A stretch of DNA of 64,000 bases from Wenzhouxiangella sp. XN24 (lineage in GTDB: Bacteria > Pseudomonadota > Gammaproteobacteria > Steroidobacterales > XN24). The stretch is from positions 62,001 to 126,000 of the forward strand of contig NZ_JAAMFG010000035.1 of NCBI RefSeq assembly GCF_011064545.1, written 5' to 3'. Each line of letters opens with the position of its first letter. The first letter of the stretch is position 1. The translations under genes and the position numbers were made by a program. Below the pieces are notes generated by a model, which saw nothing but the letters and a program-made list of their open reading frames with translations, had not been told where the DNA came from and did not search any database. Shown one piece after another: positions 19,512-40,547 of this stretch.

Positions 19512-20228
19512 ATGGATCCGGCGGCCGGCGTTGCCGCGCCGGATGAAAATCCCGGCGGTTTTCATCCGGCTTTCCGGATCCTCCTGCTGGTGGCGCTGGC
19601 CGCCATGCTGTTCCGCTATTCGTTGAGCGGGATCGCGCTCGCGCTCGCGGGCCTGATGCTGGGCGCGGCCGCCGCCGGCGGGGAAACCCTGCGGGGGATC
19701 CTGAAGTCCCTGCGCCGCATCCGCTGGCTGTTGCTCTCCATCGTCATCATCTATCTCTGGGTCGCACCCGAGCCGCAGGCCGCGGGTCGTCCCTGGTACC
19801 TGCCGGCCTGGAGCGATATCGAGATCGCCCTGCAACGCGCCGGCGTGCTGGTGGTGCTCGTCACGGCGGTGGAACTCCTGCGGCGTCGCACGAGCGTGCC
19901 GGCGATGGCGGCGGGGCTGCTGGTGCTGCTTGCGCCGCTGACCCGCCTGGGTGTCGATACCGGCGTCTTCGCGCGGCGGCTCGCGATGACGCTGGATGCG
20001 GTGCCGCTGACCGCGGAGCGTGTCACCGCCGCCGCCGGCGCGCGACGCGCGGGCCGCGGGCTGGCCGGCTGGGGAGACGCGGCGGCCACGCTCGTGCGTG
20101 AACTCGAGACAGGCGCAATCGAGGCCCCATCGGATGCGCGCCTGCCGCGCCTGCCGCGCCCGCGGGTCAGCGACTGGCTGTGGCTGGCGGCGGGGCTCGC
20201 GGCCTGCTGGCTGGTGGGCCGGTTGTGA
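19512..20228 (+). CDS. Membrane protein with EcfT/CbiQ-like features
   Basis: Product of 238 residues with roughly five hydrophobic segments (about 22–60, 75–92, 110–128, 135–150 and a final one at 220–237). The alternation of short cytoplasmic basic stretches ('KSLRRIRWLL', 'ELLRRRT') and the '[30 protein letters not shown]' region resemble CbiQ/EcfT transmembrane components of energy-coupling-factor transporters, but no ATPase or S-component gene is nearby. It begins five nt after fimV and its stop overlaps the truA GTG by four bases, so it is in that operon. Function not assigned. Confidence 0.6.
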   Translation: MDPAAGVAAPDENPGGFHPAFRILLLVALAAMLFRYSLSGIALALAGLMLGAAAAGGETLRGILKSLRRIRWLLLSIVIIYLWVAPEPQAAGRPWYLPAWSDIEIALQRAGVLVVLVTAVELLRRRTSVPAMAAGLLVLLAPLTRLGVDTGVFARRLAMTLDAVPLTAERVTAAAGARRAGRGLAGWGDAAATLVRELETGAIEAPSDARLPRLPRPRVSDWLWLAAGLAACWLVGRL

Positions 20229-21028
20229 GCGGGCCGTTGCCGGGCCAGCGGCGGATCGCCGTCGGCGTGGAATACGACGGTGCCGGGCTGTTCGGCTGGC
20301 AGGTACAGAAGGACGGGCCGAGCGTGCAGGCGGCGCTGGAGACCGCGTTGTCCGCGGTGGCCGACGAAGCCGTGCGGGTGGTCGGCGCCGGGCGCACGGA
20401 CACCGGCGTCCACTCGACGGGCCAGGTGGCCCATTTCGACACCGCCGCCCGGCGCCGCCCCCGTGCCTGGCTGCTGGGGGCGAACAGCGCATTGCCGCCC
20501 GGCATCGCGTTGCGCTGGGCGGGCGAGGCACCGGACGGCTTTCACGCCCGCTTCTCCGCCGTGGCCCGCAGTTACAGCTACCTGTTGCTCAACCGGGAGG
20601 CGCGTCCGGCGCTGTGGCGCGATCGCGCCTGGTGGGTCCGCCGCCGCCTGGATGCCGAACGCATGCACGCCGCCGGCCAGGTCCTCGTCGGGCGGCACGA
20701 TTTCTCCGCGCTGCGGGCCTCCGAGTGCCAGTCCCGGACGCCGGAGCGCTGCATCCACAGCCTGGAGGTGACGCGGCACGGTGACTTCCTGCGCCTTGAC
20801 GTGACGGCCAACGCGTTCTTACATCACATGGTGCGCAACATCGTCGGCACGCTGGCCGCGGTGGGCCGCGGGGATCGCCCGCCGGACTGGGTGGCGGAGG
20901 TGCTGGCCGGCCGGGATCGACGCCTCGCGGGTGCCACGGCCCCGGCCGCGGGCCTGTATCTCGTGCATGTCGATTATGGCGGCCTGCTGCCGACGCCGCC
21001 GGCCGAGCGTCCCGGGCCGCTGAGTTGA
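20225..21028 (+). CDS. truA: tRNA pseudouridine(38-40) synthase
   Basis: Forms pseudouridine at positions 38–40 of tRNA anticodon stems. The catalytic aspartate lies in '[15 protein letters not shown]'; '[19 protein letters not shown]' and '[16 protein letters not shown]' are the other family blocks. With the GTG at 20225 the protein has 267 residues, close to E. coli TruA (270), and the start overlaps the upstream stop as GTGA. In many pseudomonads trpF (and sometimes trpBA) follows truA; here a 91-nt gap leads straight to accD. Confidence 0.95.
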
Positions 21029-39438: not shown

Positions 39439-39515
39439 CGGGGCATAGCGCAGTCTGGTAGCGCGTCTGCTTTGGGAGCAGAAGGTCGGGGGTTCGAATC
39501 CCTCTGCCCCGACCA
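39439..39515 (+). tRNA. tRNA-Pro(TGG)
   Basis: 77-nt cloverleaf: acceptor CGGGGCA pairs with TGCCCCG, discriminator A, encoded CCA. The anticodon stem TCTGC/GCAGA encloses loop TTTGGGA with anticodon TGG. T-arm contains GGTTCGAAT. First gene of the cluster. Confidence 0.95.
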
Positions 39516-39552: not shown

Positions 39553-40012
39553 GCGCCCGTAGCTCAACCGGACAGAGCATCGGCCTTTGAGTGAGGAGCC
39601 TGCAGCGGGAAACACAACCGTTGCAGTGAACCGCACCGTAACGGGGAAACCTTAACAGGTAATGCTGATGGCAATCCCGTGGAAACCTGCAGGTGATCCC
39701 CGTCCCGAGGTGAATCGCGGCTCGATGCAGTCGAGTTCCTCGCATCACGGATAAGGATCACCTGGGCGACCTGAAGGCTCAGTGAATTCGGTTCGAACGT
39801 ATCGCTGAGGGTAAGGGCAGCCGGGAACGGTCAGTCACGAAACGTAAATTTCGCAGCTGATTACCGCGGGGTTCCGTAGAGACTAGACGTGCGGCGCCTG
39901 AGATGGCGAAGGGATAGTCCAGACCACAAACCCGCCAGGTTGCGGGGCCGCGAAAGCGGTAGTTGGTAAGCTAAGCCGAGGGTTGCAGGTTCGAGTCCTG
40001 CCGGGCGCGCCA
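39553..40012 (+). tRNA. tRNA-Arg(TCT) interrupted by a group I intron
   Basis: Two exons, 39553–39587 (35 nt) and 39971–40012 (42 nt), join to a perfect 77-nt tRNA. The acceptor GCGCCCG pairs with CGGGCGC, discriminator G, encoded CCA. The D-arm is GCTC/GAGC, anticodon stem TCGGC/GCCGA, seven-base loop CTTCTAA and T-arm GCAGG/CCTGC with TTCGAGT. The anticodon is TCT, decoding AGA/AGG. The insertion lies between anticodon positions 34 and 35. Only this junction satisfies both a seven-base loop and a terminal intron G. Ordinary tRNA scanning would miss or mis-call this gene. Confidence 0.88.
39588..39970 (+). ncRNA. Group I self-splicing intron in tRNA-Arg
   Basis: A 383-nt intron with a recognisable group I core. 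P1: exon GGCCTT pairs with intron GGAGCC, with a U·G at the splice site and one C·A mismatch. P2: 39600–39604/39622–39626. P3: CCGCAC 39631–39636 with GTGCGG 39889–39894. P4: ACGGG 39641–39645 with CCCGT 39676–39680. P7: GACTA 39881–39885 with TAGTC 39915–39919 (the classical R and S elements). P8: CGCC 39895–39898 with GGCG 39905–39908. P9: CCCGC/GCGGG 39931–39946, then a GAAA-capped hairpin 39948–39959. The intron ends in G. P6 is extended (about 39690–39870). There is no open reading frame and so no homing endonuclease. The compact core and tRNA location suggest subgroup IC3, which is inference. Confidence 0.9.
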
Positions 40013-40051: not shown

Positions 40052-40127
40052 GTGGGCGTAGCTCAGTTGGTAGAGCCCTGGATTGTGATTCCAGTCGTCG
40101 TGGGTTCGAGTCCCATCGTCCACCCCA
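40052..40127 (+). tRNA. tRNA-His(GTG)
   Basis: Acceptor GTGGGCG pairs with CGTCCAC (one G·T), anticodon loop TTGTGAT gives GTG. A G at 40051 can serve as the G−1 that pairs with discriminator C73, the histidine identity element; CCA is encoded. Third gene of the cluster. Confidence 0.94.
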
Positions 40128-40209
40128 TTTTCCCGGCGCGCATCAGCGGTTCTTTACAAAGCCGTGACACGCGGCCAAAATTCGCGTCTTGCCTTCGCGG
40201 CAAGGCACC

Positions 40210-40285
40210 GGGCCGCTAGCTCAATTGGCAGAGCAACGGACTCTTAATCCGCAGGTTGAAGGTTCGATTCCTTCGCGGCCCACCA
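40210..40285 (+). tRNA. tRNA-Lys(CTT)
   Basis: 76-nt cloverleaf with acceptor GGGCCGC/GCGGCCC, discriminator A and encoded CCA. The anticodon loop CTCTTAA gives CTT; the base pair at the top of the anticodon stem is an A·C mismatch. T-arm GAAGG/CCTTC. Followed directly by a terminator hairpin. Confidence 0.92.
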
Positions 40286-40297
40286 AATCGACCCCCG

Positions 40298-40327
40298 CGA
40301 GACCGCCGCAAGGCGGTCTCGTCATTT
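40298..40327 (+). terminator. Terminator after tRNA-Lys
   Basis: Perfect 10-bp stem CGAGACCGCC (40298–40307) with GGCGGTCTCG (40312–40321), GCAA tetraloop, then TCATTT. It would end the Pro–Arg–His–Lys transcript and separate it from tRNA-Leu and tig. Confidence 0.75.
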
Positions 40328-40458
40328 GGGGCGCCGGCTGGTGGCGGCGATCAAGCCACCCGGAGCGCCGAAAAACAGGAATACGGAGGCGTTCCTAGGT
40401 ATACTTTGCGGCTGGTCTGGCGCGGGCAAGGCCGGACTCGGCCTCCCCGGTCCCAAGC

Positions 40459-40547
40459 GCGAAAGTGGCGGAACTGGTAGACGCGCCGGGTTTAGGTCCC
40501 GGTGGGGTTGATCCCCCGTGAGAGTTCGAGTCTCTCCTTTCGCACCA
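40459..40547 (+). tRNA. tRNA-Leu(TAG)
   Basis: 89-nt class II tRNA with acceptor GCGAAAG/CTTTCGC, long variable arm and encoded CCA. Anticodon stem CCGGG/CCCGG encloses TTTAGGT, anticodon TAG. Upstream, TATACT at 40400–40405 is a possible −10 box without a convincing −35. It ends 86 nt before tig. Confidence 0.95.

Follow-up and report, generated by a model that had tools for sequence, protein, structure and literature searches.

The tRNA-Arg(UCU) gene of the gammaproteobacterium Wenzhouxiangella sp. XN24 is split within its anticodon, which raises the question of what the inserted DNA is, how it reached this site, and whether the gene can still serve the cell. The stretch of DNA analysed as a whole (the window, 64 kb) represents positions 62001-126000 of contig C35 in genome G000 (3.29 Mb, 98.7% complete), and the gammaproteobacterial origin that had been read from the DNA alone was supported. 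All features of the locus lie on the plus strand, in the order tRNA-Pro, split tRNA-Arg(UCU), tRNA-His, tRNA-Lys and tRNA-Leu. The upstream neighbour is tRNA-Pro(TGG) at 39439-39515, and the downstream neighbours tRNA-His, tRNA-Lys and tRNA-Leu(TAG) occupy 40052-40547, followed by genes which we take, from their translations, to be tig-clpP-clpX-lon. Elsewhere in the window, ARAGORN called a 96-nt tRNA-Ala(ggc) at 20206-20301, which had no Rfam match and is probably false.

Group I intron in the sole tRNA-Arg(UCU) gene found

After joining of the 5' exon (39553-39587, its last nucleotide being position 34 of the tRNA) with the 3' exon (39971-40012, CCA included), ARAGORN called a 77-nt tRNA-Arg(tct) split between positions 34 and 35 (U|CU); the unspliced precursor was called only when introns were allowed, as i(36,383). 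Both exons were directly joined, with 0 nt between them, in all 14 empty-site loci of relatives (L007-L020), so that the boundaries of the intron are exact: it extends from 39588 to 39970, is 383 nt in length and ends with G. The complete tRNA that had been predicted from the two halves was thus confirmed. A terminal G was observed for 39 of 39 distinct introns at this junction with a placed 3' end (L037 left out).

The helices P2, P3, P4, P5, P5a, P6, P7, P8, P9 and P9.1 were all found within the intron, giving the P3-P8 and P4-P6 core with the P7 pseudoknot. The P2 hairpin (39600-39626) is formed by pairing of 39600-39608 with 39618-39626. The 5' strand of P3 (39631-39636) pairs with its 3' strand at 39889-39894, and P4 (39641-39680; 39641-39646 with 39675-39680) encloses P5 and P5a. 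The 5' strand of P6 (39681-39687) has its partner at about 39869-39875, and that of P7 (39881-39885) at 39915-39919. The P8 hairpin (39895-39908) is followed by J8/7 (39909-39914), and the segment 39931-39959 contains P9 (39931-39946) and the P9.1 GAAA hairpin (39948-39959).

Covariation was analysed on alignment A2, composed of 20 related introns without endonuclease gene and leaving out the window intron. Standard pairs filled 98.7% of pair cells and two-sided changes occurred in 18 of 48 pairs, giving a covariation of 0.328 as compared with 0.116 (sd 0.009) for shuffled and at most 0.057 for slid alignments. Two-sided changes support P2 (8 of 9 pairs), P4, P5a, P8, P9 and P9.1 (7 of 9 pairs for the last two together); no variation is seen in P5, P6 or P7, and P3 varies one-sidedly only, these four being conserved rather than proved by covariation. 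The predicted core of P3, P4, P7, P8 and P9 was present in full, with this qualification for P3 and P7. The putative internal guide GGAGCC of P1 is located at 39595-39600. By eye, the U at the 5' splice site faces a G in either register of P1, and the predicted U·G and terminal G were thus both there; the guide (20 of 20 rows of A2) and the 5' exon end are invariant, which places P1 itself outside the reach of covariation. As read, P1 contains either a C-A mismatch or just three pairs, and this counts against the explanation that we favour below.

Model R1, a covariance model built from A2 and thus with the window intron excluded, matched the window at 39586-39970 (224.4 bits, E 9.8e-75). This was the sole match up to E 1 in the 64 kb, and its score falls inside the range of the relatives. 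Together with the covariation among relatives, it bears out the original prediction of a group I intron. The test proposed for that prediction, a match to the Rfam model RF00028, failed, formally the outcome that had been named as a refutation: no match to the window intron was found up to E 1. This miss is one of the results that weigh against the favoured explanation, although such a match is a detection test and not a defining property of group I RNA. RF00028 also missed eight of eight other tRNA-Arg members of the family (L002-L006 and three others), indicating that the failure is a limit of the reach of this model. Among 12 further loci, it detected the single tRNA-Gln intron, five of eight tRNA-Leu introns and none of three tRNA-Arg introns. 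The tRNA-Gln(CUG) intron (G222, L250) scored 80.7 bits with RF00028 (cut-off 50) and 69.4 bits with R1, and the five tRNA-Leu(UAA) introns gave E values of 8.5e-4 to 2.3e-8, all below the cut-off, and are reached by R1 as well. Since R1 and RF00028 share these tRNA-Gln and tRNA-Leu relatives, the tRNA-Arg introns are tied to curated group I. The window intron may resemble the Azoarcus intron, which belongs to subgroup IC3.

No second tRNA-Arg(UCU) gene was found in the 98.7% complete genome by RF00005, ARAGORN or a sequence pattern. RF00005 gave 44 matches, and ARAGORN, run on 30 of them and on 10 other loci, called as arginine tRNAs cct, ccg and acg only; the pattern TTCTR...GTTCRA matched 14 times, as often as in the reversed control (14), and never at an RF00005 place. 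The codon AGA is used once in the trigger-factor frame. As tRNA-Arg(CCU) cannot read AGA and no other tRNA-Arg(UCU) was found, splicing is needed for the reading of this codon, and the split gene must work in its spliced form. The ribozyme would excise itself from the precursor by guanosine-started two-step splicing, as predicted from its core, and the product would read AGA. That the gene is instead a dead, unspliced pseudogene, with another tRNA reading AGA, is hardly credible. The endonuclease described below is indeed dead, and splicing here is predicted from sequence; nevertheless, the intact second copy that was named beforehand as the sign of a pseudogene did not turn up, the core helices and both exons are intact, and the R1 score is that of the relatives.

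Endonuclease relic and states of the homing cycle

The original prediction had regarded the intron as lacking a homing endonuclease, and had concluded that it was either old and vertically kept or acquired by reverse splicing. The first statement has to be corrected. The P6 loop contains the relic of a PD-(D/E)XK homing endonuclease gene of the PF11645 type (39725-39879; the start, taken as ATG 39725, is uncertain). Its C-terminal piece of 34 residues (39775-39876) is 73.5% identical to the protein of locus L027 (tblastn, E 3.4e-14), while the N-terminal piece of 11 residues (39750-39782), matched by eye, is in another frame. The catalytic middle is missing, an open frame with the catalytic D..QxK is absent from the window copy, and the profile scan with PF11645 gave no match in G000. 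The former stop, TAG at 39877-39879, lies inside the conserved J6/7; in the intact copies, too, the gene stop read from the sequences is the TAG of J6/7, within the ribozyme core.

An intact form is seen in genome G015, of which the 644-nt intron holds a 139-aa open reading frame matching PF11645 (PDDEXK_5) with E 6.8e-40 (one protein scanned, L004). Among 16 aligned endonucleases, D40 and K55 are invariant and Q53 nearly so, and these three are presumably the catalytic residues. The profile of the 16 proteins matched and aligned to PDB 2ost (E 6.3e-8), an entry titled 'putative endonuclease' which we take to be I-Ssp6803I from the tRNA-fMet intron of Synechocystis. Values of dN/dS for intact genes were between 0.06 and 0.21 (21 of 66 pairs, those with usable dS below 1.6), indicating that the intact genes are under purifying selection. 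A plasmid search with the endonuclease gave no match. These likenesses identify the P6 insert as a defunct homing endonuclease gene of the I-Ssp6803I type.

The same locus was matched in 54 of 59 genomes, and the intron was present in at least six (G000, G001, G002, G015, G038 and G058), the organism's own included in both counts, in answer to the proposal to look for the insert in related genomes. In the relative Thioalkalivibrio sp. XN8, the intron is 227 nt long. In a scan of genome contigs with the core pattern, 37 introns were detected on 36 stretches; apart from those of L052 and L037, every one interrupts tRNA-Arg(UCU) at the same junction. Combined with the first six, and after removal of the duplicates L029, L032 and L053 (identical to L002, L006 and L005), they make 40 distinct introns, among which L052 (5' exon not found) and L037 (3' exon off the contig, length underestimated) were kept. 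An intact endonuclease gene is carried by 12 of the 40, a relic by eight, the window's included, and none by 20, and many empty sites exist beside them. These states are those of a homing cycle, in which gain, decay and loss follow one another. Locus L052 consists of the intron 3' part with a relic endonuclease, its 5' side running into other sequence. In another stretch (L044, 2561-3851), two tRNA-Pro/Arg/His clusters with different tRNA-Arg introns lie on opposite strands of a 5.7-kb contig, which may be a chimeric assembly.

The explanation that we consider very probable is that a mobile intron with an endonuclease in P6 reached this site and its endonuclease decayed, leaving a remnant maintained by splicing, with phages as plausible source and vehicle. 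The intron would have arrived with a PD-(D/E)XK homing endonuclease in its P6 loop, and this enzyme would cut the intron-less tRNA-Arg(UCU) gene at or near the anticodon, the predicted target, with homing through repair of the cut. In G000 the endonuclease would have lost its catalytic middle after fixation, giving an immobile intron kept by splicing, within a cycle in which such gain, decay and loss recur.

The two routes named in the original prediction fare less well. An old intron inherited vertically, with an unrelated P6 expansion and without mobility, would fit its presence in each of the three genomes searched within this genus (G000, G001 and G002), as well as the persistence of introns without endonuclease (20 of 40). 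We nevertheless regard it as very unlikely, as the P6 insert matches an endonuclease, 12 relatives keep the gene intact under purifying selection, and the distribution is patchy. The exact junction pattern was detected in 32 genomes out of 396 for the order, 6 out of 369 for a class sample and 1 out of 329 for a phylum sample. The window's genome contributes to each of these counts, all of which are lower bounds, as the pattern missed the tRNA-Arg(UCU) intron that R1 and ARAGORN detected in G066. Spread by reverse splicing of RNA would agree with the same endonuclease-less half of the set; this process needs no endonuclease, yet 12 intact and eight decayed genes are found at one and the same site, which makes it highly improbable as well. 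Homing driven by the endonuclease is indicated jointly by this patchiness, by the intact state of the gene in relatives and by the existence of empty sites.

The association of endonuclease and intron was also examined in the 396 genomes of the order. PF11645 was found in 17, at one place each and with a stop inside in two. At each of the 17 places, R1 matches flank the gene or adjoin it on the same contig, so that in this sample the endonuclease is seen only in such introns; 16 of the 17 genomes have the junction pattern on that contig, and in the other (G093) the gene is bracketed by R1 matches. R1 matches themselves occurred in 208 of the 396 genomes, many from introns of other tRNAs. The best R1 matches were tRNA-Arg(UCU) at all eight loci fetched, and 20 further places, nearly all weaker matches, gave 13 tRNA-Leu(UAA), four tRNA-Phe(GAA), two tRNA-Arg(UCU) and one tRNA-Gln. 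The tRNA-Leu(UAA) introns of the same family and the tRNA-Gln(CUG) intron in these relatives are represented by loci L243-L261.

Genome G015 carries both an intron with intact endonuclease (C28, L263) and an intron-less tRNA-Arg(UCU) at C32:4249-4325 (L262). This double copy fits an efficient cutter badly unless the bin mixes strains, and it represents either mixed strains or a real second copy.

Phage endonucleases and introns in viral tRNA genes

Free-standing relatives of the endonuclease were found in phages. The gene adjoins tRNA-Arg(UCU) in Synechococcus phage Sf-FR1, where the identity is 57%, and in Acinetobacter phage Herod, where it is 42%; these are the best two of 30 named phage records and those with known surroundings (the other 28 being more distant). 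Together with 39 loci from a profile scan of IMG/VR, these two make a set of 41 loci, forming 30 clusters at 95% nucleotide identity. An intact tRNA-Arg(UCU) gene lies within 100 nt of, or overlaps, the endonuclease at 35 of the 41 loci and in 24 of the 30 clusters. Within 100 nt, Arg(tct) made up 35 of 52 tRNAs as against 1 of 143 farther away (Fisher p 1.3e-24), and for representatives only 24 of 36 as against 1 of 124 (p 1.4e-18). The loci were found by similarity to the endonuclease of tRNA-Arg introns, and the linkage accordingly holds for its close relatives and not for the whole Pfam family. R1 detected no intron at 40 of the 41 loci, so that the phage endonucleases are free-standing as far as R1 sees. 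Six loci are exceptions: near the endonuclease no tRNA-Arg(UCU) was found in L101, L129, L130 and L133, in L098 it lies 432 nt off, and in L131 it is interrupted. The tRNA nearest to the free-standing PF11645-type endonucleases of L129 and L130 is tRNA-Ser(GCU), perhaps another target.

In L131, tRNA-Arg(UCU) is split by a 229-nt intron of the same family (R1, 160 bits) that lacks an endonuclease gene, with the free-standing endonuclease just downstream. A terminase (phrog_38, E 9.7e-44) is encoded on this contig, as detected on L150, which belongs to the same contig. The first form of the intron core pattern gave no stretch on viral contigs; with a shorter 3' core motif, to which the AT-rich L131 intron conforms as well, 79 viral stretches with 96 R1 matches (E 0.01 or better) were obtained, 29 stretches yielding no tRNA after splicing. 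By junction and ARAGORN, tRNA-Arg(UCU) is interrupted in 16-17 of the 79, or 10-11 distinct cases at 95% identity. The range reflects the doubtful L203 (3' exon CTAATG), and in L142, L151 and L170 the split falls at 33/34 and not at 34/35; as some viral tRNA names are unreliable (SeC, Stop or Ser at clear Arg junctions), the counts rest on the Arg(tct) calls. An intact endonuclease resides in P6 of a tRNA-Arg(UCU) intron in L177 (83.7-kb IMG/VR record), where it is flanked by R1 matches, and a relic inside a viral intron was found in L182. In a PHROGs scan of ten proteins (L150, L177, L162, L191, L182 and L214), the terminase was the sole packaging or structural match and the proteins of L177 and L162 gave none; the viral label of contigs without PHROGs support therefore rests on IMG/VR. 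Tandem introns of the family were observed within one phage tRNA cluster, three each in L162 and L188 and two each in L146 and L198. In L162 (3561-5017 of a 280.9-kb viral record) they lie in tRNA-Arg(UCU), at a tRNA-Leu(UAA)-like junction and at a third site, and the arrangement is similar in L146, L188 and L198.

With the endonuclease family beside intact tRNA-Arg(UCU) and the intron family inside their tRNA genes, phages would be both a plausible source and a plausible vehicle of the mobile intron, an arrangement suggesting that selfish DNA moves between phages and bacteria within tRNA genes. A tree was built from 12 intron proteins, L177 and 26 of the 30 phage representatives, the matches of the other four (L118, L133, L134 and L137) being partial or weak. 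In it, the 12 bacterial intron endonucleases formed one group (96/89) apart from the 26 phage proteins and L177, the latter placed without support. This topology agrees with a single old entry into the intron of bacteria and perhaps an independent one into phage introns; no recent step from phage to bacterium appeared in it, which counts against the reading, as do the loci L098, L101, L129, L130 and L133 mentioned above. The phage tRNA-Arg beside the endonuclease often keeps the anticodon arm GCCTTCTAAGC, the same as in the bacterial target, which leaves the resistance of the phages' own tRNA genes without explanation and counts against the mobile-intron explanation.

The phage cassette of tRNA-Arg(UCU) and free PF11645 endonuclease might alternatively be a weapon that cuts tRNA-Arg(UCU) in the host or in competing phages, with the phage supplying its own copy and a group I intron at the cut site making the bacterial gene uncuttable. 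This reading is compatible with the phage linkage, and we consider it unlikely. If it were true, introns with a dead or lost endonuclease would be kept as an immunisation of an essential tRNA gene.

Significance and relation to known systems

What makes these results interesting is the larger system that bacteria and phages form around a single tRNA. A single tRNA site shows all stages of the homing cycle (empty site, intact endonuclease, relic and endonuclease-less intron) in related bacteria, and the same endonuclease recurs in phages, both free-standing and inside an intron, so that it becomes testable how an endonuclease and an intron come to share a target. In practical terms, a tRNA gene of which no second copy is in sight can escape annotation that relies on Rfam's group I model and on tRNA finders blind to introns.

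Beggiatoa and Thiomargarita are gammaproteobacteria. A putative intron interrupting tRNA-Arg-TCT has been noted in Beggiatoa BOGUAY and Thiomargarita nelsonii, its type and structure not being determined there, and no endonuclease is described in the accessible part of that paper (PMC4853749). The tRNA species and the bacterial class are those of the window, and the novelty originally proposed for a gammaproteobacterial tRNA-Arg(UCU) is thereby lost. Bacterial tRNA introns are known from tRNA-Leu(UAA) of cyanobacteria, tRNA-Arg(CCU) of alphaproteobacteria and tRNA-Ile(CAU) of Azoarcus. Introns of tRNA-Ile2 in Acidovorax and Burkholderia are described in PMC8450103. All these are likewise bacterial group I introns of tRNA genes, in tRNAs other than that of the window. 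The free-standing endonuclease F-CphI is aimed at an intron insertion site in collaborative homing; it resembles the phage enzymes described here in this respect but concerns psbA, whereas tRNA-Arg(UCU) is the gene concerned here.

A review places all phage introns then known in protein-coding genes (PMC3984707). Among the matches listed by our searches of the open literature, including the accessible parts of PMC6125680, PMC13096335 and PMC11878797 and with subscription papers outside their scope, neither phage tRNA introns nor the endonuclease-tRNA-Arg(UCU) linkage had been described. As far as these searches reach, the linkage and the family introns in viral tRNA genes appear to be new. SegB of T-even phages is likewise a free-standing phage endonuclease by tRNA genes, but is grouped with the GIY-YIG endonucleases in PMC13096335, whereas the enzyme here is of the PF11645 type and accompanies tRNA-Arg(UCU). 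With I-Ssp6803I and the tRNA-fMet intron of Synechocystis, the present system shares a PD-(D/E)XK endonuclease within a tRNA group I intron. Unlike that case, another tRNA is interrupted, the endonuclease sequence is distant, the gene is located in P6 and is decayed or lost in 28 of the 40 introns, and free-standing relatives of the enzyme are found in phages.
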